A stretch of 64,000 nt of DNA from the NCBI RefSeq assembly GCF_000195295.1, contig NC_015388.1:868001-932000 (forward strand), read 5' to 3'. This document shows positions 16,263-61,873 of this stretch, piece by piece (position 1 is the stretch's first letter; each line of letters begins with the position of its first letter). Source of the DNA: Desulfobacca acetoxidans DSM 11109. Its GTDB lineage: Bacteria; Desulfobacterota; Desulfobaccia; Desulfobaccales; Desulfobaccaceae. The translations under genes and the position numbers were made by a program. The notes under the pieces were generated by a model. It was not told the DNA's origin, did no database searches, and saw only the letters and a list, made by a program, of their open reading frames with translations.

Positions 16263-16315
16263 GATCAGCGATTTTCTGTTTTCATACCATCTTCCACACA
16301 ATTAAGACGTATAAG

Positions 16316-16475
16316 GATAGGAAGAGCCAGCTACCTCCCCCCCCTCCGAACCGGACGTGCGGTTCTCCCGCATCCGGCTCTCCGGTTGGTGGTTTTGCCT
16401 TACGACTCCCCTTCCGCATTCGGTAGGGATGGATTCGAGCGGAGGTTCCGCATATCGAAATGTAATGTTTTCCGG
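16316..16475 (-). mobile_element. Group II intron remnant, no reverse transcriptase
   Basis: On the minus strand, GAGCCGGATGCGG..CCGCACGTCCGGTTC followed by GGAGGGGGG is the well-known hairpin found just before the reverse-transcriptase ORF of bacterial group II introns. The flanking bases also resemble that leader. No RT frame follows in the 16.3-16.5 kb gap, so this is a scrap. The gap between 16262 and 16565 holds nothing else I recognise. Confidence 0.6.
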
Positions 16476-30398: not shown

Positions 30399-31718
30399 TT
30401 ATTTAGACAAACTGAACATTGGGGATTTTTCCAACAAACCCTGCAGTCCCATTACCTGACTAACGAACTGCTTAGTTTCTTTAATTTCCGGAATCTGATA
30501 CCCCGCTTGAACTACTCGTTGTGGCCCGGCGTTATAGGCAGCCACGGCTAACGGCATGGACCCATTGAAACAATTTATCATCTCCCGCAGATACCGGCTT
30601 CCGGCCATCACGTTTTCCCGGGGACAGAAAGGATCGTGCAGCCCTAAATCGGCTGCCGTCCCCGGCATCAACTGCATTAAGCCCATGGCCCCTTTGGGTG
30701 AGACTGCCAATGGTGAAAAATTTGATTCCAGGCGAATAAGGGCCAGAATTAACGACGCTGGCAGCCGATAATTCTGAGCCGCCTCCATAACAATGGCGGC
30801 GAGGGAGGGATCGATTGCGCCCAACTCCGGCGGGGCGGGAATTTTTGCTAAATGACTATCCGGTTCCTTAGTGTAGATATGTAACCGGCCCCCCTTGTCT
30901 TTTCGTACGATCACGGACGGGTTGGCATTTTTGTGAGGCGACTGGCCCAGAGTGGCAGAAGGGTTTTTAGTTTTATCCAGGGCCAGAGGCAGGGCTGTGC
31001 CGGGATCGGCAGGAGTTGCCGCCATAGCCCGTTTTTTTTTGGTCAAGACCACATTGGTGATGTGTATCGTCCCCTGCTTATCGCAATGCCGGCGAATATT
31101 TCTTTCCGACAGAGTTGTCAGCCAAGAGGTTTCCCTTGGCACTGTGGCGTCAGCCGGGATAATTAAGCCCGATGGTGTGGATTTTCCCCCCTGGTCCAGG
31201 CAAGTTTTTGAAAACGCCGGTATGTGAGAGACCGGCTGAACCACCCTGGTGTTGGCGGCTGCACCATTTGCCTTGGGCTCCTCTTTGCTGACATTGGTGA
31301 TACACAAAAATCCCTTTTCGTTTAGTCTAACCTCTATAAGATCTTCCTCAACCGCGGTTGCCTGACGCCGATCGACTATCCCTGATATTTTTGCCATTGG
31401 CTGCGGCGATGGCCTATCCGTAGATTGTCTGGATACGGCTCTTAAGAGAATGTTTTGAGGACCTTTTTCTAAATTATCCTTTATGGCTGGGGGAGAAGGG
31501 GGCGCACCCGGCGCCAAGGGCCGTTCCCCAGATTTTTCGGCGTCTTTGGAATGACCAGTGAGTGGCGGGATTTTTGGAGTATCTTTGTCATTATTATCCT
31601 GATTAGTAATATGGACTTTTCCTTGACTATCGATAAACAGCTTTATCTTGGCGATGGTCGCAGCAGGCATCAGGAAAAGAAAACCGCCAAAGAGAAGCAG
31701 CAGTCCAATAGATCGCAT
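30399..31718 (-). CDS. Lytic transglycosylase with repeated DUF4124-like motifs
   Basis: 439 residues with an N-terminal signal peptide. Four short motifs of the form DxxGxxHITN (DSQGKVHITN, NEKGFLCITN, DKQGTIHITN, DKGGRLHIYT) are spaced through the first 300 residues, resembling DUF4124 elements. The C-terminal SLT domain has the catalytic Glu in RLESNFSP, then GAMGLMQLMPGTAADLG and AYNAGP. It would cleave peptidoglycan in the periplasm, for example to make room for an envelope machine. A shorter paralogue is encoded at 60760. Confidence 0.9.
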   Translation of the reverse strand: MRSIGLLLLFGGFLFLMPAATIAKIKLFIDSQGKVHITNQDNNDKDTPKIPPLTGHSKDAEKSGERPLAPGAPPSPPAIKDNLEKGPQNILLRAVSRQSTDRPSPQPMAKISGIVDRRQATAVEEDLIEVRLNEKGFLCITNVSKEEPKANGAAANTRVVQPVSHIPAFSKTCLDQGGKSTPSGLIIPADATVPRETSWLTTLSERNIRRHCDKQGTIHITNVVLTKKKRAMAATPADPGTALPLALDKTKNPSATLGQSPHKNANPSVIVRKDKGGRLHIYTKEPDSHLAKIPAPPELGAIDPSLAAIVMEAAQNYRLPASLILALIRLESNFSPLAVSPKGAMGLMQLMPGTAADLGLHDPFCPRENVMAGSRYLREMINCFNGSMPLAVAAYNAGPQRVVQAGYQIPEIKETKQFVSQVMGLQGLLEKSPMFSLSK

Positions 31719-32555: not shown

Positions 32556-32589
32556 CAGCGCTCAGTTTAAAGAGCTAAACCCTGATAAA

Positions 32590-32678
32590 GCCACACACCG
32601 GGCGACCGGGGGCCGGAAAGCTACGGGTCTCACCAGAGACAGCCTTGTAGCTGCCAGGCATCCCGGTTTTTTTTATGC
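32590..32678 (+). promoter_or_regulatory. Solitary GEMM-I-like riboswitch with damaged terminator
   Basis: CCACACACCGGGCGACCGGG, GGCCGGAAAGC, GGGTCTCACCAGAGACAGCC match the three intact GEMM-like elements in this window. The 3' P1 strand reads GTAGCTGCC instead of GGTTGCC, and the terminator stem is broken although a T-run remains. No gene follows directly; the next leader begins within 60 bases. It looks like the rest of an earlier riboswitch-gene unit. Confidence 0.5.
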
Positions 32679-32684
32679 CTTCAT

Positions 32685-32696
32685 CTCAACCTTGAG
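32685..32696. promoter_or_regulatory. CTCAACCTTGAG palindrome
   Basis: 12-base inverted repeat CTCAA-N2-TTGAG, also found at 32744, 34976 and 38403, each before a riboswitch leader. Confidence 0.4.
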
Positions 32697-32743: not shown

Positions 32744-32755
32744 CTCAACATTGAG
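32744..32755. promoter_or_regulatory. CTCAACATTGAG palindrome, leader A
   Basis: A perfect CTCAA/TTGAG dyad, followed directly by GCAATATTGC (another perfect dyad). It is placed about 220 bases before the cobalamin riboswitch and is a candidate operator near the leader promoter. Confidence 0.4.
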
Positions 32756-32961: not shown

Positions 32962-33194
32962 GGGAAGGGTGTGAATCAAGGAACGATAACACCATGACTG
33001 GCCAAGGGAACTGGGTGTGAATCCCAGGCGGGCGCGCCGCTGTGAACGGGGACGAAGGCCGCAGGTGAGCCACTGTGGGGTAGTGCAGCTCCCATGGGAA
33101 GGCGCGGTTGGTAGGTCGATCCGTGAGCCAGAAGACCTGGCAGTTTCATAGGGATATGGTCCAATGCAGACCTCGCGGAACGGGTCCGAGGGCC
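32962..33194 (+). promoter_or_regulatory. Cobalamin riboswitch, leader A
   Basis: The aptamer core is clear: GGGTGTGAATCCCAGGCGGG, CGCCGCTGTGAACGGGGACG, GAGCCACTG (B12-box region), GGGAAGGCGCGG and GATCCGTGAGCCAGAAGACC. A 3' hairpin CCTCG..CGAGG could supply the kissing loop. A strong terminator follows at 33230, so bound B12 should stop transcription. The family is well established. The regulatory direction is inferred from the terminator. Confidence 0.92.
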
Positions 33195-33229
33195 TTATAG
33201 AGATGGTAGATGCCAGAATGAGGCAAGGC

Positions 33230-33257
33230 CCCGATTCCCGCGGAATCGGGTTTTTTT
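33230..33257 (+). terminator. Terminator of the leader A cobalamin riboswitch
   Basis: A perfect 9-bp stem CCCGATTCC/GGAATCGGG with loop CGC, followed by seven T. It lies directly after the riboswitch and before the GEMM element. Confidence 0.92.
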
Positions 33258-33343
33258 CGGTCAACTCTCAGCCGGAGTAAAGCAGCATGGCATGATGTAA
33301 GCAAAGGCACCGCCTGATCCAAAAATGGTTACGTCGTGAACAA

Positions 33344-33406
33344 GCCACACCCCGGGCGACCGGGGGCCGGAAAGCCGCGGGTCTCAGCAGAGACGGCCGG
33401 GTTGCC
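33344..33406 (+). promoter_or_regulatory. GEMM-I-like riboswitch (c-di-GMP/cGAMP class), leader A
   Basis: Family-like blocks are GGGCGACC, GGAAAGCCGCGGGTCT and GACGGCCGGGTTGCC. GGCGACC can pair with GGTTGCC as P1, and GTCTC/GAGAC forms the second arm. The usual tetraloop arm is reduced to a short CCGG/CCGG hairpin, so this is a variant. The P1 3' strand is also the left arm of the terminator, so ligand binding should allow read-through. The ligand cannot be fixed from sequence. Confidence 0.68.
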
Positions 33407-33427
33407 ACCAGGCAGCCCGGTTTTTTT
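33397..33427 (+). terminator. Terminator overlapping the leader A GEMM element
   Basis: CCGGGTTGCC/GGCAGCCCGG stem, loop ACCA, seven T. It is mutually exclusive with P1 of the preceding aptamer. Confidence 0.9.
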
Positions 33428-33486
33428 GTTTATCCATTGCATAAACGAATTGCCTGAAATAATGGTACATGAAGGGAGATAAACAC

Positions 33487-34659
33487 ATGCGTATTGATCG
33501 AAGGACAATAACGAACCAGATGCTTGGTTGTTTCATGGCCTTGGCATTGATGCTGCTCCTTCCCGCGGCTTCCGAATCGATGACATTTTCGGGCCTTGGC
33601 ATGTCGGAGGGTTATAAAGGTAGCGTAGCTTACGACATTTCTGCGGATGGCTCCATTATAGTCGGTCTTCAGTCTACCCCTACTTACGCTGCCGAGGCGT
33701 TTCGTTGGACGGCTTCGAGCGGCTTTGCGAAGGTGGGCGATCTGCCGGGAGGGGAAACTTATAGCATCGCCTTCGGCGTTTCTGGGAATGGCTCGGTCGT
33801 GGCTGGTTGGAGCCGGTCTGGCTTAGGCGAAGAGGCGTTTATTTGGACCGCGTCAGGCGGCATAAAAGGTCTGGGCGACCTAGCGGGGGGGTATACCAGA
33901 AGCTACGCCGATAGCGTCTCTGCGGACGGTTCCACTGTGGTGGGTTACTCCACGTCCACTAGCGGTGATGAGGCTTTTGTTTGGAAAGCATCAACCGGCA
34001 TGGTGGGGTTAGGAGATCTGCCGGGATCTGATTTTAACAGCAAGGGCACTGGAGTTTCCGCGGATGGTTCGGTCGTGGTCGGTTGGAGCCACTCCAGCAA
34101 TGGTCAAGAAGCATTTATTTGGAAAGCATCAACCGGCATGGTGGGGTTAGGAGATCTGCCGGGAGGATCTTTTAAGAGCGTAGCGGAAGATATTTCTGAT
34201 AACGGCTTGGCCGTGGTCGGAAATTCCTTATCCTCCAACGGAAGAGAAGCGTTTCTCTGGACCGAATCAGGCGGCATGATAGGCCTGGGCGACCTGGCGG
34301 GAGGAAGTTTTTCGAGCGAAGCCTTGTCGGTTTCTGCGGACGGGTCCACCGTGGTTGGCAGAAGCACATCTGGAAACGGCACTGAGGCGTTTGTATGGAC
34401 GGAACAACTTGGAATGGTCAGCATTGAAGAATTGTTGATCGCGGCCGGCGTCGACACGACCGGATGGGGGTTAACAGAAGCCCTTGGCGTCTCTGCGGAT
34501 GGCCTCACGATTGCCGGAAAAGGGTCCAATCCTGCTGGGAAGACGGAAGCCTGGGTGATTACGTTGGATGCTGCGCCAGTTCCCCTCCCCGGCGCGGTGC
34601 TGCTCCTGGGCGCCGGTCTTTGTCGCCTGGCTGCGGCGCGGCGGCGCCGGAGTCACTGA
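33487..34659 (+). CDS. HAF-repeat exported protein with PEP-CTERM-type sorting signal
   Basis: 390 residues from ATG 33487, eight bases after GGGAG. A Sec signal peptide is followed by about seven repeats of the HAF type (AFxWTxxxGMxGLGDLPGG, VSADGSxVVGxS), expected to fold as a beta-propeller-like extracellular domain. The C-terminus is the sorting signal VPLPGAVLLLGAGLCRLAAA plus RRRR: motif, hydrophobic span and basic tail. Exosortase-type enzymes process such tails, and none is encoded in this window. It is the first gene under leader A. Confidence 0.88.
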   Translation: MRIDRRTITNQMLGCFMALALMLLLPAASESMTFSGLGMSEGYKGSVAYDISADGSIIVGLQSTPTYAAEAFRWTASSGFAKVGDLPGGETYSIAFGVSGNGSVVAGWSRSGLGEEAFIWTASGGIKGLGDLAGGYTRSYADSVSADGSTVVGYSTSTSGDEAFVWKASTGMVGLGDLPGSDFNSKGTGVSADGSVVVGWSHSSNGQEAFIWKASTGMVGLGDLPGGSFKSVAEDISDNGLAVVGNSLSSNGREAFLWTESGGMIGLGDLAGGSFSSEALSVSADGSTVVGRSTSGNGTEAFVWTEQLGMVSIEELLIAAGVDTTGWGLTEALGVSADGLTIAGKGSNPAGKTEAWVITLDAAPVPLPGAVLLLGAGLCRLAAARRRRSH

Positions 34660-34822
34660 TTGTGGCCGTGATCAGGGGGAAAGACGGATTATCCTGTCAT
34701 TAACCGAACAGGTCTTTGTTGGCGCGGCGGAAGTCTATCGATGCCCACAATATCTGATTCACCCCTCACCCTGACCTCAATGTTGTTAAATTACAAAGGT
34801 AGGGGTAAAGGAAAATATTACA

Positions 34823-34862
34823 ATCCCCCCTGCCCCCCCCTTGAGAAAAGGGGGGAAAGGGG
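34823..34862 (+). repeat. Polypyrimidine/polypurine inverted repeat
   Basis: CCCCCCTT..AAGGGGGG arms with flanking CCCCCCTG and GAAAGGGGG form a hairpin after the HAF-repeat gene, perhaps its terminator or a dispersed repeat. Nothing else is seen between 34659 and 34961. Confidence 0.5.
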
Positions 34863-34975
34863 GAACCTCCCACAGGCGCTGGGAAGGTGAGCTTTTTAAG
34901 TCCCCCTTTGGTGGCGAGGCAGGAAGACATTATCACCGGACATTGAGAAAGAGGACAGATAAAGAGCAAAATTAT

Positions 34976-34987
34976 CTCAACATTGAG
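34976..34987. promoter_or_regulatory. CTCAACATTGAG palindrome, leader B
   Basis: Same dyad and same GCAATATTGC neighbour as at 32744. Confidence 0.4.
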
Positions 34988-35193
34988 CAATATTGCCCAA
35001 GTCTCTAACTGAGATTTTTAATATGATTGCAATTGTGAATTGATGGCTGAAAGTTGTTTTTCCAGCGTTTTCGGCCAGTCAAGGGGGCGCCCGGGATCGT
35101 GGGATGGCAATGGAGGTTGTCTCGGGGCGCCGAATTTTCCAGAAAGGAGGTGAAGCCACAGAGTGATCCCCGGTGGGTCGCCGAGCGGACCCC

Positions 35194-35426
35194 GGGAAGG
35201 GTGTGAATCAAGGAACGATAACACCATGACTGGCCAAGGGAACTGGGTGTGAATCCCAGGCGGGCGCGCCGCTGTGAACGGGGACGAAGGCCGCAGGTGA
35301 GCCACTGTGGGGTAGTGCAGCTCCCATGGGAAGGCGCGGTTGGTAGGTCGATCCGTGAGCCAGAAGACCTGGCAGTTTCATAGGGATATGGTCCAATGCA
35401 GACCTCGCGGAACGGGTCCGAGGGCC
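35194..35426 (+). promoter_or_regulatory. Cobalamin riboswitch, leader B
   Basis: All core boxes seen in leader A are present unchanged, including GAGCCACTG, GGGAAGGCGCGG and GAGCCAGAAGACCTGG. It is followed by the same terminator at 35462. Confidence 0.92.
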
Positions 35427-35461
35427 TTATAGAGATGGTAGATGCCAGAATGAGGCAAGGC

Positions 35462-35489
35462 CCCGATTCCCGCGGAATCGGGTTTTTTT
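35462..35489 (+). terminator. Terminator of the leader B cobalamin riboswitch
   Basis: CCCGATTCC/GGAATCGGG stem, loop CGC, seven T, identical to leader A. Confidence 0.92.
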
Positions 35490-35575
35490 CGGTCAACTCT
35501 CAGCCGGAGTAAAGCAGCATGGCATGATGTAAGCGAAGGCACCGCCTGATCCAAAAATGGTTACGTCGTGAAGAA

Positions 35576-35638
35576 GCCACACCCCGGGCGACCGGGGGCC
35601 GGAAAGCCGCGGGTCTCAGCAGAGACGGCCGGGTTGCC
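35576..35638 (+). promoter_or_regulatory. GEMM-I-like riboswitch, leader B
   Basis: The same aptamer as leader A, with GGCGACC/GGTTGCC pairing and GTCTC/GAGAC arm. Confidence 0.68.
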
Positions 35639-35660
35639 ACCAGACAGCCCGGTTTTTTTT
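35629..35660 (+). terminator. Terminator overlapping the leader B GEMM element
   Basis: CCGGGTTGCC pairs with GACAGCCCGG (one mismatch compared with leader A), followed by eight T. Confidence 0.85.
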
Positions 35661-35697
35661 GTCCATTGAATGAACACATTTTTTGAGGAGAGAACTT

Positions 35698-36306
35698 ATG
35701 AAAAAACTTTTCTTTACCTGCCTGGCGCTTTTTGTCTTGTCCCTCTTCAGCTTTTCCGGAGTCCATGCCACCTTAGTGGTAAAAGATGACGCGGTTTTTG
35801 GCGATGATGCCATCACCCTGGATACCGACACCGGATGGGAATGGCTGGATCTATCGGCCTCGCTTGGCAAATGCCGCAGCTATGTGAACACCCAGTTTGG
35901 CGTCGGTGGAGATTTCGAAGGATTCCGGTATGCCACTGTGGCCGAAGCCGAGGGTTTGTGCGTGGCAGCCGGCATGCCTCTTGGGGAAACACAAAATCAG
36001 GCCGATTTTGACGCGGTGGCTTATCTGGTCTCTTTGGTGGGACAGACTCGCAGCCAGGCAGGGTATCCGGAAATTCTTTCCATGACGGAATCAGGCACTT
36101 CCGTAGGAGCCGATTTTTATTGGGCTAATGGTGTGCCAACTTATCTAACCGGATTGACCGGCCAGTGGTATGGTGAAACTGCGGCTATTGCGACTGTCAG
36201 CAGTTGGCTGGTCCGGGAAGCTGCCCCTGTCCCCCTCCCCGGGGCGGTGTTGCTGCTAGGGTCCGGCTTGCTGCGCCTGATCGGCATACGGCGCGGCAGG
36301 AGCTAA
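35698..36306 (+). CDS. Exported protein with PEP-CTERM-type sorting signal
   Basis: 202 residues from ATG 35698, behind GAGGAG. Signal peptide MKKLFFTCLALFVLSLFSFS, a central domain with TLDTDTGWEWLDLSASLG that resembles a common PEP-CTERM protein domain of unknown function, and the C-terminal VPLPGAVLLLGSGLLRLIGI plus basic tail. First gene under leader B; the family A/B genes follow on the same strand. Function unknown; surface location is inferred. Confidence 0.82.
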   Translation: MKKLFFTCLALFVLSLFSFSGVHATLVVKDDAVFGDDAITLDTDTGWEWLDLSASLGKCRSYVNTQFGVGGDFEGFRYATVAEAEGLCVAAGMPLGETQNQADFDAVAYLVSLVGQTRSQAGYPEILSMTESGTSVGADFYWANGVPTYLTGLTGQWYGETAAIATVSSWLVREAAPVPLPGAVLLLGSGLLRLIGIRRGRS

Positions 36307-36412
36307 ACGGGGATAACCTGATCTATGGCGCCGCCTGCCGACTTCGGTCTTCCGGACGACGGGCGGCGCCGGAGCAGTGTGATCACCGGGTAAATTCTGC
36401 AAGGAGAGTGCG

Positions 36413-37288
36413 ATGAAACAAGGGCAGTTTTTTTTGTTTGTTCTATTGGTTCTGGCGGGGGTGATGGTGGCTGCTCCTGCCTTAGCGAGCCCTTTTGCCA
36501 CGGAAGTGGTAAGCGCCACCGGTACTTTCGGCCCCGGATCACTGTACAGCGATCCCAGCGCGGCGCTCGGCAAGCCCACCACCTGGATCAAGGGTTCCGA
36601 TGTGGGCGGGAAGAATATGGCCTGCTCCATGGTCTATCCCTCCTGGAACACCGATCCGGAGGGGAATAAGCTCATTACCACGATCGGCGCGCAAGCCCAG
36701 ATCACGGTTACCTTCGACCACAACATCACCAATGACCCCCTGAACCCCTACGGGATCGACTTCATCGTTTTTGGAAACGACCTCTACTGGGGAACGGGCA
36801 TGGTGGGTCCCACAACGAACATGGAGACCTACTACGTTGCCTCAGGAACCGGTTGGTCGGACCCGGGCATTGTGAGTGTGGCCCAGTACCTGGAAGGCCC
36901 CTGGTACACGTATTCGACGGGACCGTACTTCGACACCACTACCTATCCCACCCAGGCCTTTGCCTGGGACCGGGAGAACGACGCCTGGGGGGCCGAGCTC
37001 GACTGGACAAAACCCGTTAATCCGGCGCTGAATCCCACCGAGGATTTCGTTGGCCTCTCGGTGGCGGATGTCATCGACCTTTATGCCGGTTCGGCGGGAG
37101 GGACCGGCTATGATCTCGCTGCATCGGGCTTTGAGTGGATTCGATACATCAAGGTCGAATCCTCCAGCAGCACCAAGCTGGCCGAAATCGACGGATTTGC
37201 CGATGTAGCCCCTGTCCCCGTTCCCGGGGCGGTGTTGCTGCTGGGAAGCGGGCTTTTCCGCCTGTTGGGGCAGCGCCGGAGAAAATAA
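36413..37288 (+). CDS. Family B surface protein, PEP-CTERM-type tail (pair 1)
   Basis: 291 residues, AAGGAG before ATG 36413. After the signal peptide come a GTFGPGSLYSDPSAALG motif, NPYGIDFIVFGND, VSVAQYLEGPWYTY and a late IRYIKVESSSS..EIDGFADV segment. The C-terminus is VPVPGAVLLLGSGLFRLLGQ plus RRRK. The pattern recalls, from memory, Bacteroidota surface proteins encoded near btuB (FGNAF, EPGIV). Close relatives are at 39793 and 41599. The gene next door (37412) is family A. Confidence 0.82.
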   Translation: MKQGQFFLFVLLVLAGVMVAAPALASPFATEVVSATGTFGPGSLYSDPSAALGKPTTWIKGSDVGGKNMACSMVYPSWNTDPEGNKLITTIGAQAQITVTFDHNITNDPLNPYGIDFIVFGNDLYWGTGMVGPTTNMETYYVASGTGWSDPGIVSVAQYLEGPWYTYSTGPYFDTTTYPTQAFAWDRENDAWGAELDWTKPVNPALNPTEDFVGLSVADVIDLYAGSAGGTGYDLAASGFEWIRYIKVESSSSTKLAEIDGFADVAPVPVPGAVLLLGSGLFRLLGQRRRK

Positions 37289-37411
37289 GCCCATAATTAT
37301 CGCCAATACCATAGTTTTTCTTAAAGAAATATTCAGGGGCCGGGTCTCCCGACCCTGGTTTGAAAAATGTTGGCAATAACCATAAGAGGTATGAGTAGAG
37401 GATCGAAGGAG

Positions 37412-38167
37412 ATGAAAAAGTACTTGAGCATTATCCTGGTCTTGCTGGCCGTGGCCATGGCCGCGGGTCCGGCGCAATCATTCACCTTTAATGATATTGA
37501 CTTTTGGGTTGGCAGCGGCTCCAATCGGGCGGCGCTGGTGGTCCAATGGTTTGACCCCCGTATGGAAAACGCCCTGGTGTGGGGCTACCGCTGGGACGGC
37601 GAGGCCTCGGGAGAAGATATGATGACCGCCATCGCCGGGGCCTGCGATATACGCTCTTCCAATAATGGCGCGGTGGTTTACACCACTACCGGAGCGGACA
37701 GCCGGTTAGGGGCCCAGTTGACCACCTGGAGCGGGTTTGGCGGCGACAAGACCCTGTTCGGCATCGGCTACGATCTGGACAATGACGGCGGTTTTGCCTA
37801 CGTCAACGGCGCCGACGAGACCGGCCATGCCGCCGACGCCGATGATCTCTATTTCGAAGGCTGGTATAACGGTTTCTGGTCTTACTGGGTGGAGGATGAC
37901 GGCGACAATATCATCGGCAATAACATGACCTTCTCCAATTGGGGCATGTCGGCCCGGACCCTGAGCAACGGCAGCATCGATCTGTGGGGCTGGGACGATG
38001 ATCTGGACAGTTTTTTCGGCGGCGGCGACGGTATAGGCCAGCCCGTGGGGCCTTACGCCGCGGCGACGGCGCCAGTCCCGATTCCCGGCGCGGTGCTGCT
38101 GCTAAGCACCGGCCTGCTGCGTCTGGCGGGAATGAGAAGACGCCGGGAGTGGGTGGCCGGTCAGTGA
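37412..38167 (+). CDS. Family A surface protein, PEP-CTERM-type tail (pair 1)
   Basis: 251 residues from ATG 37412, which gives the cleanest signal peptide (MKKYLSIILVLLAVAMAAGP); ATG 37391 is a possible alternative. The mature part opens FTFNDIDFWVGSGSNRAALV and has ALVWGYRWDGEASGEDMMTA, then LFGIGYDLDNDGGF and many Trp, Asp and Gly residues. The tail is VPIPGAVLLLSTGLLRLAGM plus RRRR. Relatives lie at 39143 and 40699. The function is not known. Binding of a ligand by the Trp-rich face is a guess. Confidence 0.82.
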   Translation: MKKYLSIILVLLAVAMAAGPAQSFTFNDIDFWVGSGSNRAALVVQWFDPRMENALVWGYRWDGEASGEDMMTAIAGACDIRSSNNGAVVYTTTGADSRLGAQLTTWSGFGGDKTLFGIGYDLDNDGGFAYVNGADETGHAADADDLYFEGWYNGFWSYWVEDDGDNIIGNNMTFSNWGMSARTLSNGSIDLWGWDDDLDSFFGGGDGIGQPVGPYAAATAPVPIPGAVLLLSTGLLRLAGMRRRREWVAGQ

Positions 38168-38268
38168 CTATATTTTCCCGGATAAGCCCGAATCATTAGC
38201 ACCTCTTCCTAACCCTTGCCCCTCTTGGGTTAACCCTCACCCCCGCGTTTTTATCTCAATGTAGACCT

Positions 38269-38294
38269 GGTTCCCAAGCTCCGGCTTGGGAACC
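38269..38294. repeat. Perfect palindromic repeat
   Basis: GGTTCCCAAGC/GCTTGGGAACC with loop TCCG. This type of palindrome is scattered in many bacterial genomes. It lies after pair 1 and may also end its transcript. Confidence 0.6.
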
Positions 38295-38402
38295 GAATGA
38301 AGACCCCAGCTCTGATTGGTCGCTTTTTATCAGGGTGCAGTTGCGCCTTTCGAGATTTGATGAAACCATCAAAATAGGCGTCCCAAGGAAAAGCAATAAT
38401 GT

Positions 38403-38414
38403 CTCAATATTGAG
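38403..38414. promoter_or_regulatory. CTCAATATTGAG palindrome, leader C
   Basis: The fourth CTCAA/TTGAG dyad, again followed by GCAATAT, although leader C is otherwise diverged. Conservation here argues that the site matters. Confidence 0.45.
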
Positions 38415-38627
38415 CAATATCAACCGAGCATTCAGGCGGGAATTGCATTAAAAAATAAATAATGTCGTCCTGGCAACCGGAACCGTCTCTCTGTGGTGTT
38501 TAACCAATCCGGCTACGCAGGGCGGCACCTCAGAACTGGAGTGGTGGTAAATTATGATTTCCAAACTATTCGGAAGGGAGGTGAGGCCGCAGAACTGTCT
38601 CTCAAGTGTTCGCAGGGCGGACACGAT

Positions 38628-38860
38628 GGAAGGGTGAGAATCAAGGAACGATGACCCCATGACTGTCCAAGGGAACTGGGTGTGAATCCCAGGCGGGCGC
38701 GCCGCTGTAAGCGGGGACGAAGGCCGCAGAAAAGCCACTGTGGGAACTATCAAACTCTCACGGGAAGGCGCGGCTGGCAGAATGATCCGTGAGCCAGAAA
38801 ACCTTGCAGTATCATATGGACATGGTCCAATGCAGACCTCGCGGGAAGGGTCCGAGGGCC
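38628..38860 (+). promoter_or_regulatory. Cobalamin riboswitch, leader C
   Basis: The core boxes are conserved (GGGTGTGAATCCCAGGCGGG, CGCCGCTGTAAGCGGGGACG, AGCCACTGTGGG, GGGAAGGCGCGG, GATCCGTGAGCCAGAAAACC), with many compensated changes elsewhere compared with leaders A and B. The 3' hairpin CCTCG..CGAGG is kept. A terminator follows at 38898. Confidence 0.92.
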
Positions 38861-38897
38861 TTTAGCAGGCGGCACATATTTAGGTTGCGGCAAGCCC

Positions 38898-38925
38898 CCC
38901 GATATCTGCGGAATCGGGTTTTTTT
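38898..38925 (+). terminator. Terminator of the leader C cobalamin riboswitch
   Basis: CCCGATATC/GGAATCGGG stem with one mismatch, followed by seven T. Confidence 0.85.
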
Positions 38926-39020
38926 ATGGGACAATCCTAAGCCGGGAGTATTCGGTGGAGAAGTTTAAAATGATTTAAAAAAGGCATTACACAGTACAAA
39001 AATGTTTAAGCCGTGAAAAA

Positions 39021-39083
39021 ACCACACCTCGGGCGACCGGGGGCCGGAAAGCCGCGGGTCTCAAAGGAGATGGCCGGGTTGCC
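39021..39083 (+). promoter_or_regulatory. GEMM-I-like riboswitch, leader C
   Basis: ACCACACCTCGGGCGACC, GGCCGGAAAGCCGCGGGTCT and TGGCCGGGTTGCC keep all conserved blocks of leader A, while the second arm differs in its loop (CTCAAAGGAG). The conserved core in a diverged copy supports a functional RNA. Confidence 0.7.
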
Positions 39084-39104
39084 AGAAGGCAGCCCGGCCT
39101 TTTT
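39072..39104 (+). terminator. Terminator overlapping the leader C GEMM element
   Basis: GGCCGGGTTGCC/GGCAGCCCGGCC, 12-base arms with one G-T pair, loop AGAA, five T. Confidence 0.9.
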
Positions 39105-39142
39105 AATCTGTTGAACGGATAATCACGGGAAGGGTGAAGAAT

Positions 39143-39784
39143 ATGCGGAAGTTCCTCGTACTATTATTTTTTTTGATGCTTAGCGTCACCGCTCAAGCCG
39201 ACCCGTACTATTTTAATGGTGTCTGGGTGGATGTTGAGGCTTGGTGTGGTACCGGGGCCAACGAAAGCATCCTGGTGGTGGACTGGAACCGCCTCGACAA
39301 CGGCGAGGCCACCATCTCCGAGTCCCATGCCTTCGGATACCGCTGGGACGGCGGCGCTTACGAATCAGATATGCTCAACGCCTTGAACGATGCCGGCATC
39401 CTGGCGGTCACCACCAGTTACGGCGGGGCCTTTTTGGATAACATCGGCTACGATGACGTCGACGACAATGAAGTCCACATGCACATTGAAGAAGGCAGTT
39501 GGAACCTGGCCAGCACCAGCGATCCCTATGCCGAATGGGGCACTTGGGGTAACTCCGAGTGGGATTTCAATACAAGCGGATTAACCAGCGAGCTTCTTGC
39601 CAACGGGCAGTTCGAAGGGATCAATGCCATTATGTGGTTTGGTTCTTTGCCTCCTTATGCGGATGACCAACTGGATATTCCTTTAACTGCGCCGCCGGTT
39701 CCCCTTCCCGGCGCCGTCTTGTTGCTGGGCAGCGGACTATTTAGAATGATGGCGCTTCGCAAAAAATCAAAGGTAAAAAAATAA
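39143..39784 (+). CDS. Family A surface protein, PEP-CTERM-type tail (pair 2)
   Basis: 213 residues from ATG 39143, nine bases after GGAAGGG; GTG 39134 sits too close to that site. Signal peptide MRKFLVLLFFLMLSVTAQA, then FNGVWVDVEAWCGTGANESI, HAFGYRWDGGAYESDMLNAL and an Asp/Trp-rich middle. The tail is VPLPGAVLLLGSGLFRMMAL plus KKSK. It is the first gene under leader C and is followed after 8 bases by its family B partner. Confidence 0.83.
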   Translation: MRKFLVLLFFLMLSVTAQADPYYFNGVWVDVEAWCGTGANESILVVDWNRLDNGEATISESHAFGYRWDGGAYESDMLNALNDAGILAVTTSYGGAFLDNIGYDDVDDNEVHMHIEEGSWNLASTSDPYAEWGTWGNSEWDFNTSGLTSELLANGQFEGINAIMWFGSLPPYADDQLDIPLTAPPVPLPGAVLLLGSGLFRMMALRKKSKVKK

Positions 39785-39792
39785 AGGGAACT

Positions 39793-40680
39793 ATGATGAA
39801 AAAAGGATGGCTTATCCTATTGTTGTTAACGGTGTTTCTTGTCTTTACCTCACAGGCGTTTGCCTTGACCTATCTTCCCGAAGACGCGGCCCGGGGCGGG
39901 ATGTGGGCCAATGTTTTGGTAGATGCCGGGGCTGAGTATAAGAATGCTGATGGCAGTTTTAAAACTGGCGGCGGATGGAGCGACGCACACAATCTTCTCG
40001 GACCCATTCCCACAAATCAGGATCCTTATTCCCCAAAACATACCAGCATTGTAACCATGAACAACAAGGCGGCTAGCTGGGTCCAGCTCGGGTTTGCCGA
40101 TACATTCGGCAATCTGTTGCGGGTCAACAACGATCCGACCAACCCGGAAGGCTATGATGCCATCGTCTGGGGAAATGCGTTTTATTCCAGCGGCAGTCCT
40201 AATACGTGGAATGAACCGGGAACCATTTACCTGAGTCAGGACGGTTCGACTTGGTGGAAGCTTCCCTGGGACACCGAATCGGGAGCCACCGGGAAGACAC
40301 AGACCTTCGACTATACCCCAGGTGAAGGCGACGGTCTGGTTTCCCCCGGCGCTCCTTGGGAAAACTTTGTTAAAACCGGATCGACGTGGACGCACACGGA
40401 AACGGGGTTGGCCGGAGGTGATGCCTTTGATATGTCCACGGCCTATTACGTGGGTAATTGGACTGACCCCACAGACGACAATCCGGCATTAGTAGGGTTG
40501 GATTGGTTTCAGTACATCCTCCTGACGGGAGAAGGGACTGGGGGGCCCGATCCGGATTCGGTGTACGTCTTTTCCAGCTCGCCGGTTCCCCTTCCCGGCG
40601 CCGTCTTGTTGTTGGGCAGCGGTTTGGCGCGCTTTATTGTCATCTTTAGGAGAAAGCAACTTCCACATTTAAGGAACTAA
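39793..40680 (+). CDS. Family B surface protein, PEP-CTERM-type tail (pair 2)
   Basis: 295 residues, AAAGGG before ATG 39793. The signal peptide is followed by the family B elements GYDAIVWGNAFYSSGSPN, NEPGTIYLSQDGSTWWKLP and LAGGDAFDMSTA, then VPLPGAVLLLGSGLARFIVI plus RRK. The EPGTIYLSQDG..WW segment is the one most like the Bacteroidota btuB-associated surface proteins I recall. Same operon as 39143 and, 18 bases later, 40699. Confidence 0.83.
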   Translation: MMKKGWLILLLLTVFLVFTSQAFALTYLPEDAARGGMWANVLVDAGAEYKNADGSFKTGGGWSDAHNLLGPIPTNQDPYSPKHTSIVTMNNKAASWVQLGFADTFGNLLRVNNDPTNPEGYDAIVWGNAFYSSGSPNTWNEPGTIYLSQDGSTWWKLPWDTESGATGKTQTFDYTPGEGDGLVSPGAPWENFVKTGSTWTHTETGLAGGDAFDMSTAYYVGNWTDPTDDNPALVGLDWFQYILLTGEGTGGPDPDSVYVFSSSPVPLPGAVLLLGSGLARFIVIFRRKQLPHLRN

Positions 40681-40698
40681 TAGAATGGAAAACCGAAT

Positions 40699-41550
40699 AT
40701 GAAAAAAAACCTGAGCATTATTCTGATTTTGTGGATCGTCGCCCTGGCCGCGGGGACGGCCCAGGCATTCACCTTTAACGATGTCAACATCTGGGCCGGC
40801 AGCGGCTCTAATAGTGCCGGTCTGGTCATACACTGGTCGGCGCCGGAAGTTTACAACAATACCTCGATGCCCGCGCCCATTGCGGACATCTCCGTTGCTT
40901 GGGGCTATAAGTTTGACGGCACGGCCAACGCCGAAACCATGATGGTGGCCTTGGCGGCGGCGGACCCGCGGCTCTACCTGCTTGCCGGCGGTCAGCCAGG
41001 TCTGGGCATGGCCATACTCGGCATCGGCTACGACCTTAACAACAACGGCGTGTTTGGCCTGAGCGACGGCTCCACGACTTACACGGCCGCCGATTTCGCC
41101 AACGGCATCCTTGCCGATCAGCCTTACGGTGACGCGGACACCTTGCTGCCCACGGACCCCGGCGACCTGTACTGGGGTGGGTGGTATGGACCCAACTGGG
41201 AGCTGTGGCACGAGCAGGGCGGCAACGGCGGTTTTACCAGCGCCCCAGACCGTGGCAGCGACCTTTATTGGACGGGCTCTTTTTTCAGCGGTTCTCATGG
41301 CGAGTGGGATTTCTCCGGGTTGGGCATTACAAGCCTTAGCCTGGAAGATGGCTCGTGGGTCGGTTGGTCAGTGGCGGCAGGCGGTTTGGACATGGGGGAT
41401 CCCATGGGGGAAGGCACACTTGCATGGATGAACCACAAGCAGGCGCCGGGCGAGCCTTTGGCGGCGCCGGTTCCCATCACCGGGGCCGTCTGGCTGCTGG
41501 GGAGCGGTTTGCTGCGCTTGATCGGGATTTGTCGCAGATGTGCCAGTTGA
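40699..41550 (+). CDS. Family A surface protein, PEP-CTERM-type tail (pair 3)
   Basis: 283 residues. The signal peptide MKKNLSIILILWIVALAAGT and the mature start FTFNDVNIWAGSGSNSAGLV closely match the protein at 37412. SVAWGYKFDGTANAETMMVA, DPRLYLLAGG and ILGIGYDLNNNGVFG follow. The tail VPITGAVWLLGSGLLRLIGI has Thr in place of the usual Pro-Gly, so sorting might be altered. Partner: the gene at 41599. Confidence 0.82.
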   Translation: MKKNLSIILILWIVALAAGTAQAFTFNDVNIWAGSGSNSAGLVIHWSAPEVYNNTSMPAPIADISVAWGYKFDGTANAETMMVALAAADPRLYLLAGGQPGLGMAILGIGYDLNNNGVFGLSDGSTTYTAADFANGILADQPYGDADTLLPTDPGDLYWGGWYGPNWELWHEQGGNGGFTSAPDRGSDLYWTGSFFSGSHGEWDFSGLGITSLSLEDGSWVGWSVAAGGLDMGDPMGEGTLAWMNHKQAPGEPLAAPVPITGAVWLLGSGLLRLIGICRRCAS

Positions 41551-41598
41551 TTTGAAAACAAAGGAATTTTCCAATCATTGAAAGGAGCTTCGAAGATA

Positions 41599-42516
41599 AT
41601 GAAATTAGGCCGAATCATTCTCATCGGATTGGCGCTGTTCCTGATGTCAGGCCCAGCTTGGGCCAGCCCTTATGCAACGACCCTGGTGGATTCCGGCGGC
41701 ACTTTTGGGCCGAGCCCATACAACGATCCTGCATCCGTCTTGGGCGCGCCGGCCACGGATTTTTACGATCCCTGGGGCTCCTGGTCGGGGGGGGACAACT
41801 ATCGCAAGGTCAAGCTGGTGGAGCCGGCTTACAACTACGCCCCCGATCAAACCACCAAGCTGATCACCACCTTGAGAAATCCGAGTTACATCGTTGTGGG
41901 CTTTGATCATCAGGTCATAAACGACCAAAACAACCCTTACGGCATCGACTTCCTGGTTTTTGGCAATGCATTTTACGTGGGCAGCGGTTTTGTCAACGAC
42001 GAAACGAACATGGCTACTTACATGCTGGTCGGCGGCGCTTTTACTGAAAACGTGCTGGTCTCGGTCAGCCAGGGGCCGGCCTACGAGGGTCAGCCCCAGA
42101 ATGAATGGACTTGGTATACTTATTCCAACGGCCCTTACGGGGACAACGCCTTCCCCACCCAAGCCTACGAATGGGACCAGGCCAAATACGACGCTACCGG
42201 CAATGGCTGGACCGATGATCTGATGGATTTCACCAAACCGGTCAATCCCGCCTACTACGACACCCTGATGGCCGGCGGGCTCTCCGGGGCCGCGGGCATT
42301 GCCCTGTACGAAGGCTCTGGTGGTGGAACAGGTTTTGATCTGGACGTCTTTGGCCTTGACTGGATCCAATATATCAAGGTCGAAGGTACCGCCGATTTTA
42401 AAGAAGGCGAAATCGACGCCTTTGCAGACGTGGCGCCGGTGCCAGTGCCCGGCGCGGTGTTGCTGCTGGGAGGCGGCTTGTTGAGGTTGATGGCTTGGCG
42501 GCGGCGGACTAACTGA
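41599..42516 (+). CDS. Family B surface protein, PEP-CTERM-type tail (pair 3)
   Basis: 305 residues from ATG 41599, with AAGGAG somewhat upstream. The signal peptide ends at PAWA. The mature part has GTFGPSPYNDPASVLGAP, NPYGIDFLVFGNAFYVG, VSVSQGPAYEG and IQYIKVEGTADFKEGEIDAF, then VPVPGAVLLLGGGLLRLMAW plus RRRTN. It is much closer to the protein at 36413 than to the one at 39793, so the pairs did not arise by one simple tandem duplication. Confidence 0.83.
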   Translation: MKLGRIILIGLALFLMSGPAWASPYATTLVDSGGTFGPSPYNDPASVLGAPATDFYDPWGSWSGGDNYRKVKLVEPAYNYAPDQTTKLITTLRNPSYIVVGFDHQVINDQNNPYGIDFLVFGNAFYVGSGFVNDETNMATYMLVGGAFTENVLVSVSQGPAYEGQPQNEWTWYTYSNGPYGDNAFPTQAYEWDQAKYDATGNGWTDDLMDFTKPVNPAYYDTLMAGGLSGAAGIALYEGSGGGTGFDLDVFGLDWIQYIKVEGTADFKEGEIDAFADVAPVPVPGAVLLLGGGLLRLMAWRRRTN

Positions 42517-42680
42517 TTTTGGCAGGGATAATAGCGGGAGATAGATTATTCTGTCTTCCGCCCTAACGATGAAGAAAGGAGGAAGCAATACCAAAAATGG
42601 AATATCGCAGCGGAATGGTCTTCCACCTTACATATACTCTTTCTCAAAAGCTATTTCGCATCAATAACTCGCCCAGAAAT

Positions 42681-42747
42681 GGCGGGCACGGCCCGCCCTA
42701 TATGATTTATCGCAGGAAGGCATAGGATAGGGCGGGCCGTGCCCGCC
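42681..42747. repeat. Perfect 21-base inverted repeat, R4
   Basis: Arms 42681-42701 and 42727-42747 (GGCGGGCACGGCCCGCCCTA and its complement) are separated by 25 bases. The right arm recurs at 49957 with one change, so it belongs to a dispersed family. It lies between pair 3 and the dockerin gene and could stop or buffer transcription. Confidence 0.75.
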
Positions 42748-42816
42748 GTCTTCAAAGGCATAAACACGAAGAAATTTTCGAAAACTGCTAAAAATATAAA
42801 TAGAAAGGAGGATGCC

Positions 42817-44328
42817 GTGCTAAGAAAAGGATGCCGCAATTTTTGGATATTGCTCTGGACCGTGATGCTTTGTTTCGGTATCACGGCGGCCGTGGTCGCG
42901 GATGATTTCAGCGACTACAAGACAGCGGCCGGAAAGACGGGGGTGGTGAATCTGCCCACGGTGGAGGGAGGCTGGTTCACGGCGGTGGACTACTTCCCCA
43001 CCGAAGCCACGGCCATGATTGACGGCAAATTTCAAGCCCAGGGCCGCATGATCGCAGCCAACAACGACAAGATCTACCTGCAGCGCACCTACGGTTCCAA
43101 CCAGTGGGACGTGGTGGCTACAGTGCCCCCCGGCCCGATGGATCCGAGCTTTATCCACGTCTCTCCCGACGGTAGCAAGATCGCTCTGGGAATCGGCTAC
43201 GGCGCGCCTCTGGTGATCATTCCCACCAGCGCGCTCAGCGTGAGTAACCCGCAGTCGGTATTTAACACCGGACGGGTGTTCACCGAGATTAACTATTATG
43301 ACGGGGCCTGGGTTGATAATCGCTATTTCGTGGTCAACGGCGGCCAGTGGCCCACCGGCTGCGAACCGCCTTATTACAACAATCCGAATTGCTCGTTCCA
43401 GAGCGGCGTGGGGGCCGTGGATACGGAGGTTGAGGATCCTGCAACTCATGTGGGCGTGCCGCTGGTATTGGGCATTCCAGGGGCCTCCGCAGACGTGCAC
43501 GTGGACAAAAACGGCAACCTGCTCACCGGCCTGGGATGGGCCACGTACCCCACCAACCGGACGGGCGAACTCAAGGTTTGGGGTCCGGGTGAATGGGATC
43601 CGGCCGCCGGTTCCGAACTGGATTACGGGACCAACACCAAGGTGGTGGCCAATAACATCCTCAGCGTAGCCTATCTGGGTGAAGACGCGGAGGGAAACCT
43701 GCACGTGGGTGGCGGCGATGCCTTCGGCGTCGGTGGAGTGAATGAAAACGGCTATGCCGCCCTCATCAAACATGGCATTGTCAACGACATCGCCGCCGGG
43801 ACGCGCACTACCCCGGTGACCGACGGCGACAAGGCCGACAACGCCGAGTACAAGTTCTTTGCGCCGGACCCCTGCCAGGACGATTCGGCCACCGGCATCC
43901 TGGCCGGCAACTGGGGCAAAGGGCTGGCAGTGATGTGGAACCCGACCTATTACGAGACCCAAAGCAGTTGCTACGGTGGCGCCGGGTCGGCCTCCGACTA
44001 CTGGCTTCCCGGAGTGACCCCCAGGTTAACCATTTACTATCCCGGCAGCGCTCCTGACACAGATGGCGACGGCATCCCCGACGCCGCCGACAACGCCTAC
44101 CTGACCCCGAATGCGGGCCAGCAGGACACGGACGGGGACGGCTACGGCAATGCCGCGGATGCGGACCTCAACAATGACAATGCCGTAAATCAAAGCGACT
44201 TTCTCCAGTTCAGGCAAACGTTCAACACCGCTGACCCAGATGCAGATATGAACAGCAGCGGGGAAGTAAATCAGCAAGACTATCTCATGTTCCGTCAACG
44301 ATACAACAGCAGTACACCGTATTATTGA
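42817..44328 (+). CDS. Exported propeller-like protein with thrombospondin-type-3 repeats and C-terminal dockerin
   Basis: 503 residues from GTG 42817, six bases after AAAGGAG. Signal peptide, then about 350 residues with propeller-like blades (HVSPDGSKIALGIGYG; DVHVDKNGNLLTGLG; YLGEDAEGNLHVGGG). Calcium-binding DTDGDGIPDAADN and DTDGDGYGNAADADL repeats follow. Two dockerin-type loops, DLNNDNAVNQSDFLQFRQTF and DMNSSGEVNQQDYLMFRQRY, complete the protein. It lacks a PEP-CTERM tail, unlike its neighbours. The next gene encodes a cohesin-like protein that could hold it. BtuG-like corrinoid binding is a hypothesis only. Confidence 0.82.
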   Translation: MLRKGCRNFWILLWTVMLCFGITAAVVADDFSDYKTAAGKTGVVNLPTVEGGWFTAVDYFPTEATAMIDGKFQAQGRMIAANNDKIYLQRTYGSNQWDVVATVPPGPMDPSFIHVSPDGSKIALGIGYGAPLVIIPTSALSVSNPQSVFNTGRVFTEINYYDGAWVDNRYFVVNGGQWPTGCEPPYYNNPNCSFQSGVGAVDTEVEDPATHVGVPLVLGIPGASADVHVDKNGNLLTGLGWATYPTNRTGELKVWGPGEWDPAAGSELDYGTNTKVVANNILSVAYLGEDAEGNLHVGGGDAFGVGGVNENGYAALIKHGIVNDIAAGTRTTPVTDGDKADNAEYKFFAPDPCQDDSATGILAGNWGKGLAVMWNPTYYETQSSCYGGAGSASDYWLPGVTPRLTIYYPGSAPDTDGDGIPDAADNAYLTPNAGQQDTDGDGYGNAADADLNNDNAVNQSDFLQFRQTFNTADPDADMNSSGEVNQQDYLMFRQRYNSSTPYY

Positions 44329-44351
44329 TATTAAGAAATTAGGAGACAATT

Positions 44352-44984
44352 ATGAAACCCCTAAGATTTCTCTTGTTGTCTATGTTAATTTCTCTTTTCA
44401 CCTTGACACCGGCCTTAGCTTCTTACTGGTCATTAACCCCAGACGGCCAGATTGACACGGAAATAGGTGATGAAATCGCCTTTACTCTGACTTTCCACTC
44501 CACTGAAAATATTCCGCTTATGATTAGCTGGCAACTCGATTTTCAGGTTGACGCTACGGAATTAGAACCTGCTACGCTGGCCAGTGGGAAATATAAAGTA
44601 TACTATAATACCTTTGACGCCGGCTTTGGTCCCCTAAACATCAAAAATGGCTACTTCAAAGATGGCATTTATGATCTTTCCGCTGGAAGTTTGTTTGATG
44701 TATTGAACATAACTGCGGGAAACTCATACGACTTCGCAACTTTCTATATGAAAGTTATTGCCGACAATACCTGGGATGGCATTCCTGATGTGGCGCTCCT
44801 TTCCCAGATAGGAATTGAGTGGCTCGGCATTCAAGAAGAAACTGGAATTATACACCATTACGCAGGAGATGACGGTGCTTCGGTCGGCAGCCCCCCTGCC
44901 GTTCCTATTCCCGGGGCGATCTGGCTTCTGGGTATGGGGCTCCTGCGCCTGGCAGCCGGAGCTCGCAAGAGAGAGCGCCTGTAA
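44352..44984 (+). CDS. Cohesin-like exported protein with PEP-CTERM-type tail
   Basis: 210 residues, AGGAGAC before ATG 44352. Signal peptide MKPLRFLLLSMLISLFTLTP, then a beta-rich domain (DTEIGDEIAFTLTFHS; SWQLDFQVDATELEPATL) with the layout of cohesin modules. The tail is VPIPGAIWLLGMGLLRLAAG plus RKRERL. Cohesins bind dockerins, and a dockerin protein is encoded immediately upstream. The cohesin assignment rests on pattern only. Confidence 0.65.
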   Translation: MKPLRFLLLSMLISLFTLTPALASYWSLTPDGQIDTEIGDEIAFTLTFHSTENIPLMISWQLDFQVDATELEPATLASGKYKVYYNTFDAGFGPLNIKNGYFKDGIYDLSAGSLFDVLNITAGNSYDFATFYMKVIADNTWDGIPDVALLSQIGIEWLGIQEETGIIHHYAGDDGASVGSPPAVPIPGAIWLLGMGLLRLAAGARKRERL

Positions 44985-58891: not shown

Positions 58892-59671
58892 TCACGGCTG
58901 GGTTTTCAAACTCTTTTTGTATTCCGAGGGACTTCGGCCCTCAATTTTTCTAAAAACTCTTCCAAAGTAAGATAGATCACCAAACCCAACGGCATAACAG
59001 GCCTCGGAAATATTCAAGTTATCATCTTTCATGAGTGCTTTGGCCTGGGTCACCCGTTTGCGGTTGAGGTATTCTTTGAAAGACAGTCCCATGATTTCCT
59101 TGAATTTCCGGACAAAATGAAATTTGCTCAAGTTGCTGATTTGACAGACCTTGTCCAAAGTCAACGCCTCATGATAGTTCTCATCAATAAATTGAACCGC
59201 CTTGGTGATGACATTGTATTCCTGCTTTGCCATTCCCGGGATCAACCTTCTTTCCAGGGAAATGAGGGCTTGACAAAGCAGTTGCAGTCGTTCAGCGATC
59301 AACTGATAGACATTTCGCATCATGGCCGAATGGACGCTCAGTTTCAGGAAGCTCTCTCTGGACAGGAGGAGAACTTCCATAGTCGTCAAGGACTCAATAT
59401 CATACAGGGAGGAGCCATTTTCCAAAGCAGCCATCTCCCCAAAAAGCTCCCCGTCTCCGAGGAGATGGAATCGTATCGTTTCACCATACCTATCCTTCAC
59501 TCTCATCTCTGCCGTTCCCGACATGACAATACCAATGCGGTCAATGCTTTCTCCTGTCTGACTCAGAAGAAATCTTTTTGGAAAAACCTCTTTCTTCGAA
59601 GACGCTGCTATTTCACGCAAGCAATTCTCCGGGAGTCCTAAAAAAATTTTAGTGGCTCTTATGACCTGCAT
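58892..59671 (-). CDS. Crp-type sensor fused to AraC-type DNA-binding regulator
   Basis: 259 residues. Residues 1-125 form a cyclic-nucleotide-binding-like barrel (GTAEMRVKDRYGETIRFHLL; GDGELFGEMAALENGSS). Residues 155-259 are an AraC family double HTH (LTLDKVCQISNLSKFHFVRK; YAVGFGDLSYFGRVFRK). Crp proteins normally carry their own HTH, so this is a domain swap. It lies between a minus-strand cobalamin riboswitch and the flp-tad cluster, all in one direction, making it a candidate regulator of the pilus. Confidence 0.88.
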   Translation of the reverse strand: MQVIRATKIFLGLPENCLREIAASSKKEVFPKRFLLSQTGESIDRIGIVMSGTAEMRVKDRYGETIRFHLLGDGELFGEMAALENGSSLYDIESLTTMEVLLLSRESFLKLSVHSAMMRNVYQLIAERLQLLCQALISLERRLIPGMAKQEYNVITKAVQFIDENYHEALTLDKVCQISNLSKFHFVRKFKEIMGLSFKEYLNRKRVTQAKALMKDDNLNISEACYAVGFGDLSYFGRVFRKIEGRSPSEYKKSLKTQP

Positions 59672-59852: not shown

Positions 59853-59951
59853 ATTGCACCCAGATTACTTGATCCCTGGCTTGGCTATAAAGATTTGCCT
59901 TCTCTTCATAACCCAGGCATACCCATTACCTCGTGGGTATACCAATAAGCT

Positions 59952-60112
59952 CACAGGCAGGTCTTCTGACTCCCGGATTATCCTAGTCCCTGCGCCTTCC
60001 CATTCCCTTCAGGTAAACAGTGGCAATTGCAGGTTTCGTCCCCGGTTACAGCGGCGGGACCGCGCCGGGTTCGCACCGGCTTCCCTATTAAACCCCTTGG
60101 GGTGCCTGAAAC
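59952..60112 (-). promoter_or_regulatory. Cobalamin riboswitch facing the Crp-AraC regulator
   Basis: The minus strand shows all consensus boxes: CAGGCACCCC, GGGAAGCCGGTGCGAACCCG, CGCCGCTGTAACCGGGGACG, TGCCACTG, GGGAAGGCGCAGGG and GTCAGAAGACCTGCC. A terminator follows at 59852-59817, before the regulator gene. B12 binding should lower expression of that gene. Confidence 0.95.
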
Positions 60113-60426
60113 TAAAAAAGTGTATAATTTGATTTGCCGTCTTTGTCAAGAGAAAAAACTTTCTATAGGTTGATTAGATTTTATTACAAGATAATAATAA
60201 CACCGTATAATTCAATCTTCCCGAGCTATCATGTTCGTCTCCGTATTTAAAGACGAGCCCTAAAAATGCGCCTGTTTTCTTCCAGGACACCCCTGAGCCA
60301 GATCGTCTCAAAATCTCTGGGTTAGTCGGACCCCGGCGCGTCCAGATTGGTTTATTGATATTGAAACTGAATTCAACTTTTTTCCGTTGACAAAAAGAAT
60401 AGATTCACAATATAATCATTTCGCTT

Positions 60427-61764: not shown

Positions 61765-61873
61765 TGCCTGTTGATCTAAATCCACTGTTAATATGTCTAT
61801 TAAAACCGGTCGCTCGCGAAAAGGATTAGAAGGATTATTTTGATAAATACCTTACATTTTAAGGGAAAAAGGG

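Follow-up and report, generated by a model that had tools for sequence, protein, structure and literature searches.

Leaders in which an adenosylcobalamin (AdoCbl, a form of B12) riboswitch precedes a riboswitch for cyclic di-GMP (c-di-GMP) or cyclic AMP-GMP (cGAMP, c-AMP-GMP) have been described in Desulfobacca acetoxidans by Sherlock et al. (2022, RNA Biol 19:1059; PMC9481103), whose Figure 3 depicts a 7-kb cluster of seven riboswitches and whose Table 2 gives two AdoCbl/c-di-GMP-I and one AdoCbl/c-AMP-GMP tandem examples. In that account a terminator follows every AdoCbl aptamer, an extra c-di-GMP-I copy lies ~320 nucleotides (nt) upstream, three c-di-GMP-I-type aptamers from the locus are subjected to in-line probing in vitro, AdoCbl binding is inferred from the consensus, and conductive pili are suggested as targets, with a predicted logic of NOT A AND B (NOT B12 AND second messenger). 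The window analysed here, a 64,000-nt stretch of D. acetoxidans DSM 11109 (NC_015388.1, positions 868,001 to 932,000), matches the published locus element by element, and its three tandem leaders, termed A, B, and C, show no architectural difference from the tandems as depicted there, the counts of two and one agreeing. The initial annotation of this DNA treated the serial B12/GEMM arrangement as not known to be described; the arrangement is real, but has been known since 2022, a verdict independent of the limits of the distribution searches presented below.

Each leader consists of a cobalamin aptamer followed ~175–206 nt downstream by a c-di-GMP-I aptamer (Table 1), all above the Rfam gathering thresholds applied with cmscan (31.5 bits for RF00174 and 35 for RF01051), and each aptamer is followed by its own terminator-like hairpin. 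The three cobalamin matches retain the B12-box core and lie more than 45 bits over the family cut-off, and every leader thereby holds two aptamers for different ligands with separate terminators, as expected of a tandem gate. The layout proposed in the initial annotation, in which cobalamin aptamer, terminator, GEMM-I-like aptamer, and second terminator recur in three leaders, is confirmed by this Rfam and hairpin evidence, including the covariance match to the second element on which it hinged, found in A, B, and C alike; the fourth c-di-GMP-I element and the near-identity of A and B had gone unmentioned. Across the genome, a single contig of 3,282,536 bases, Rfam identifies four c-di-GMP-I elements, all at the tandem cluster, and 12 cobalamin matches.

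Table 1. Features of the tandem riboswitch cluster, in window coordinates.
Feature	Position	Strand	Evidence and remarks
Lone fourth c-di-GMP-I aptamer, upstream of leader A	32580–32658	+	RF01051 38.3 bits; also in PMC9481103
Palindrome CTCAACATTGAG (CTCAANNTTGAG), possible operator	32744–32755	.	238 nt before leader A cobalamin aptamer
Leader A cobalamin (AdoCbl) aptamer	32982–33158	+	RF00174 79.4 bits
Leader A predicted antiterminator	33175–33241	+	33175–33187 pairs with 33227–33241, including terminator 1 left arm; ViennaRNA
Leader A terminator 1	33230–33257	+	9-bp stem, 7 T
Leader A c-di-GMP-I aptamer	33334–33409	+	RF01051 54.7 bits; G at 33344 (Vc2 position 20)
Leader A terminator 2	33395–33427	+	12-bp stem; hairpin −20.3 kcal/mol over 10 bp; overlaps aptamer P1/P3 3' strands
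HAF-repeat protein ending in a PEP/VPLPA-like sorting tail, under leader A	33469–34659	+	TIGR02913 1.4e-35; tail VPLPGAVLLLGAGLCRL..RRRR
Leader B cobalamin aptamer	35214–35390	+	RF00174 79.4 bits
Leader B terminator 1	35462–35489	+	Hairpin/T-run scan; repeat comparison with A
Leader B c-di-GMP-I aptamer	35566–35641	+	RF01051 53.9 bits; G at 35576
Leader B terminator 2	35627–35659	+	Hairpin scan; one pair fewer than A
Three genes sharing this C-terminal tail, under leader B	35683–38167	+	Open reading frames 35683–36306, 36413–37288, 37367–38167; starts provisional
Leader C cobalamin aptamer	38670–38804	+	RF00174 82.0 bits, core only; flanking part from ~38648
Leader C terminator 1	38898–38925	+	Weaker, −9.2 kcal/mol
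Leader C c-di-GMP-I-type aptamer	39011–39086	+	RF01051 53.0 bits; A at 39021 (Vc2 position 20)
Leader C terminator 2	39072–39104	+	12-bp stem, −26.8 kcal/mol
Genes after leader C, most with PEP/VPLPA-like tails	39134–44984	+	Reading-frame tails, profile matches; operon extent inferred

The hairpin/T-run scan detected terminator 1 in leaders A and B and terminator 2 in all three, with the leader C copy of terminator 1 (38898–38918) carrying a mismatch and being located through the repeat and its fold. The terminator 2 stem of leader A reads GGCCGGGUUGCC-ACCA-GGCAGCCCGGUU ahead of a T-run, and the left arm of the 12-bp stem is formed by the 3' strands of aptamer helices P1 and P3. The suggestion that the P1 3' strand doubles as the left arm of the second terminator is therefore borne out by alignment and hairpin fold, with the P3 3' strand used as well, and since the stem draws on both strands, ligand binding should oppose termination, as in an ON switch. 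For the first platform, the antiterminator was predicted by folding the platform RNA with ViennaRNA up to, but without, the terminator right arm. The terminated and antiterminated states of leader A lie ~3 kcal/mol apart (−38.8 vs −35.6 kcal/mol) and have the terminator left arm in common, whilst in leader C the antiterminated state is slightly favoured (−36.7 vs −34.3 kcal/mol), its alternative fold being homologous to that of A and composed of different bases.

The ligands of the second aptamers can be read from the residues of their pockets. Position 10 of the RF03167 model was assigned by sequence in this analysis to Vc2 position 20, and alignment to this model places a G there in A, B, and the lone copy (c-di-GMP type), and an A in C. 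Leaders A and B combine G20, A47, and C92 (Vc2 numbering), the canonical c-di-GMP-I pocket, while the A at position 20 of a c-di-GMP-I fold that denotes cGAMP (GEMM-Ib) riboswitches is found in leader C only (39021). On these residues, A and B are assigned a c-di-GMP pocket and C a cGAMP pocket, resolving the either-or of c-di-GMP and cGAMP in the initial annotation, and this is consistent with the published binding data, in which in-line probing revealed improved c-AMP-GMP binding by the leader C aptamer (PMC9481103). At a permissive threshold RF03167 (c-di-GMP-I-GGC) also scores 55–58.5 bits in A–C, slightly above the RF01051 scores; membership of this family was rejected, the scores lying below its cut-off of 59 and position 47 being A, not G, and the near-cut-off score stems from general similarity rather than a GGC-variant pocket.

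From this organisation, each leader probably acts as a two-input transcription-attenuation gate of a known kind. RNA polymerase would first transcribe the AdoCbl aptamer and terminator 1. With AdoCbl bound, the antiterminator strand (around GACCUCGCGG..GGGUCC) would be held by the aptamer side, allowing terminator 1 to form and transcription to end, whereas without AdoCbl this strand would pair with the terminator 1 left arm and let polymerase proceed to the c-di-GMP-I-type aptamer. A bound dinucleotide would there keep the P1 and P3 3' strands out of the terminator 2 left arm, permitting expression of the gene, and without the dinucleotide terminator 2 would form. The predicted output is NOT AdoCbl AND c-di-GMP for leaders A and B, and NOT AdoCbl AND cGAMP for leader C, directed to surface proteins with exosortase-type tails. 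AdoCbl riboswitches with terminators are usually OFF switches, and the B12 = OFF direction is adopted because of this known behaviour; we infer likewise which way each switch acts, the presence of one upstream promoter, and a kissing-loop route of B12 action. A low-B12 AND high-messenger logic is consistent with both the sequence and what Sherlock et al. predicted, and remains a prediction.

Several observations weigh against such a gate. An L5–L13 kissing loop is expected of AdoCbl riboswitches, and the corresponding pairing was matched, by eye, over four bases only (CGCG/CGCG). The fold energies of the first platform are not better than those of shuffled sequences (z of −1.2 and −0.7; −1.2 for leader A), and B nearly duplicates A, leaving only two independent sequences behind the antiterminator, which is therefore to be regarded as a prediction. 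Furthermore, the cobalamin scores of A–C (79–82 bits) fall under all but one of the nine others in the genome (74–134 bits), and no transcription assay was found in what the account of the locus in PMC9481103 presents. Additionally, a sequence scan identified no promoter for the leaders. A sigma-54 site search upstream of A, B, and C yielded nothing convincing. The two aptamers may belong to separate transcripts, with the AdoCbl riboswitch ending a short upstream RNA and a second promoter, situated after terminator 1 but before the c-di-GMP-I aptamer, driving the gene, such that no gate exists. The ~75–85 nt from terminator 1 to the second aptamer would offer space for this promoter, and sigma-70 consensus scans overlook other promoter types; however, no sigma-70-like site was found on the + strand of this interval in leaders A, B, or C, and the whole leader, from ~238 nt before the B12 aptamer to terminator 2, has been duplicated in one piece, three copies of which are retained. 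We consider separate transcripts unlikely.

The low cobalamin scores, together with the weak terminator 1 of leader C, could also indicate AdoCbl aptamers that are decaying or non-controlling, leaving the c-di-GMP/cGAMP element to regulate alone, as in a same-genus relative where a lone c-di-GMP-I element stands before a VPLPA-CTERM gene. Despite the divergence between A/B and C, however, the B12-box core, the platform block, and terminator 1 are conserved, which suggests selection, and the wide margin of all three aptamers over the family cut-off likewise speaks against decay, an explanation we regard as unlikely. The two-input gate remains the preferred reading of the leaders.

The genes that this gate would control were examined through their C-termini. 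Most reading frames behind the three leaders terminate in basic residues preceded by a motif such as VPLPGAVLLLGSGLLRL, and the NCBIfam PEP-CTERM and VPLPA-CTERM models match these tails below their cut-offs, including PEP/VPLPA-CTERM matches in the leader B genes and weak PEP-CTERM and TIGR03370 matches at the C-terminus of the HAF-repeat protein; one leader C gene (42739–44328) also has a dockerin domain. Because of these sorting-type tails and the three exosortase homologues present in the genome, exosortase-sorted surface or matrix proteins are better candidates than conductive pili, and are the probable targets. Elsewhere, c-di-GMP riboswitches have been associated with PEP-CTERM and VPLPA-CTERM genes (PMC12530212).

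As for the supply of the signals, five GGDEF loci were found in the genome, one of them split across two overlapping frames. A GAF-GGDEF protein (genome 2800748–2801218) contains the motif GHLLGS...YGGDEF, with Ser in place of the canonical Asp. The Hypr signature, which marks cGAMP-making enzymes, consists of this Ser in combination with a GGDEF motif (PMC6456294). This protein is a candidate cGAMP synthase, and as such would fit the cGAMP-type pocket of leader C. At loci L016 / L047 (genome 1409424–1410757), a cobalamin riboswitch lies before a radical-SAM-like gene, divergent from and ~0.4 kb or less away from a canonical GGDEF gene.

The distribution of the two elements was compared by eye, from two element tables, across 29 genomes of the order (D. 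acetoxidans and 28 others), many of them fragmented. Cobalamin riboswitches occur in all 29 and c-di-GMP-I elements in 25, with both elements ≤30 kb apart on one contig in D. acetoxidans only, and this table comparison found no other tandem among the 28 relatives. A search of the class (the same 29 genomes) with leader A DNA returned, outside D. acetoxidans, only separate cobalamin or c-di-GMP-I fragments, and an exact-match search of other genomes with part of leader A gave no matches. A wider search pattern (cobalamin 3' box and c-di-GMP-I core at 181–241 nt), narrow enough to miss even leader C, matched 15 genome and two viral contigs, none with an Rfam c-di-GMP-I element, and the same pattern, with the same blindness to leader C, matched only D. 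acetoxidans among 395 genomes of the phylum. In many other members of the order, the c-di-GMP-I element lies, by eye, near TadE- or pilin-like genes, while in the same-genus genome G024 the sole c-di-GMP-I element directly precedes a gene ending NTLVPLPASLFLAGPGLLWLLARRRG (VPLPA-CTERM), with no cobalamin riboswitch nearby.

Since no B12 element accompanies this lone same-genus copy, the B12 gate appears to have been added late. The regulatory platform of A–C differs from most other cobalamin riboswitches in the genome, and derivation of the tandem B12 element from these was judged unlikely, because most share a different platform (GGGTGCAATCCTTGGGTCC..GGACTCAAGG). The simplest history would start from a single c-di-GMP-I switch, followed by addition of a B12 switch in the D. 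acetoxidans lineage, duplication of the cassette, and a pocket change in C. More tentatively, and short of what we would call probable, the locus may be a visible evolutionary series, in which an exosortase-substrate gene began with an ancestral c-di-GMP-I switch, such as persists alone in the same-genus genome, and acquired an upstream AdoCbl switch in D. acetoxidans alone; the cassette would then have been copied, and one copy would have turned to cGAMP, a Hypr-type cyclase being encoded in the genome.

Leaders A and B form a near-identical direct repeat (98–100%), with C ~79–92% alike and the lone copy 71% like A. The local terminator stem of the lone copy is degenerate (−6.3 kcal/mol vs −13 to −27 in A–C), in particular its left arm, whilst the right arm has an alternative partner in the P2 strand of the same aptamer; the degenerate stem is consistent with decay. 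The palindrome before leader A recurs before B (34976–34987) and C (38403–38414), with an extra copy at 32685–32696, such that four of its eight genome-wide copies lie at this cluster. It stands 238 nt from the B12 aptamer in A and B, and at a similar distance in C, where it persists despite divergence of the upstream sequence around it. The palindrome may be an operator.

Elsewhere in the window, the highest-scoring cobalamin riboswitch in the genome (60411–60596, +, 133.8 bits) is followed by a terminator-like hairpin and, at 60760–63373 (+), by genes for a lytic transglycosylase (SLT) and for a type II secretion system/type IV pilus ATPase with an MshEN match, giving a second instance in which surface machinery lies behind a B12 riboswitch. 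c-di-GMP can be a ligand of MshEN domains. A divergent cobalamin riboswitch (59939–60124, −, 122.6 bits), which also has a terminator-like hairpin of its own, lies ahead of the gene for a regulator that combines cyclic nucleotide-binding (cNMP) and AraC helix-turn-helix domains (58892–59671, −). The SLT-domain protein behind the 60411 riboswitch (60760–61764, +) has a C-terminal region similar to that of another just upstream of the tandem cluster (30399–31718, −). Rfam also matches a group II intron domain at 16311–16382 (−, 59.5 bits).

A gate of this type would be a rare natural case of coenzyme level and second messenger being combined by RNA alone, and the one locus offers c-di-GMP and cGAMP versions for comparison. 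The probable surface-protein targets in place of pili, the single-element relative, and the candidate cGAMP synthase added here facilitate tests of what was proposed in 2022. The S-adenosylmethionine (SAM-I)/AdoCbl tandem of Bacillus clausii metE, as cited in PMC9481103, likewise places two different, independent riboswitches in series; unlike the gate proposed here, both are described as OFF switches, forming a NOR gate with a metabolic target. The Methylophaga GP59 element (PMC12530212) and locus L082 of genome G024 each present a single c-di-GMP-I element with the same class of target gene as seen here, but in contrast to the D. acetoxidans leaders have no cobalamin riboswitch upstream. Whilst Sherlock et al. 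speculate on conductive pili for this locus, most of the downstream reading frames resemble exosortase-sorted surface proteins.
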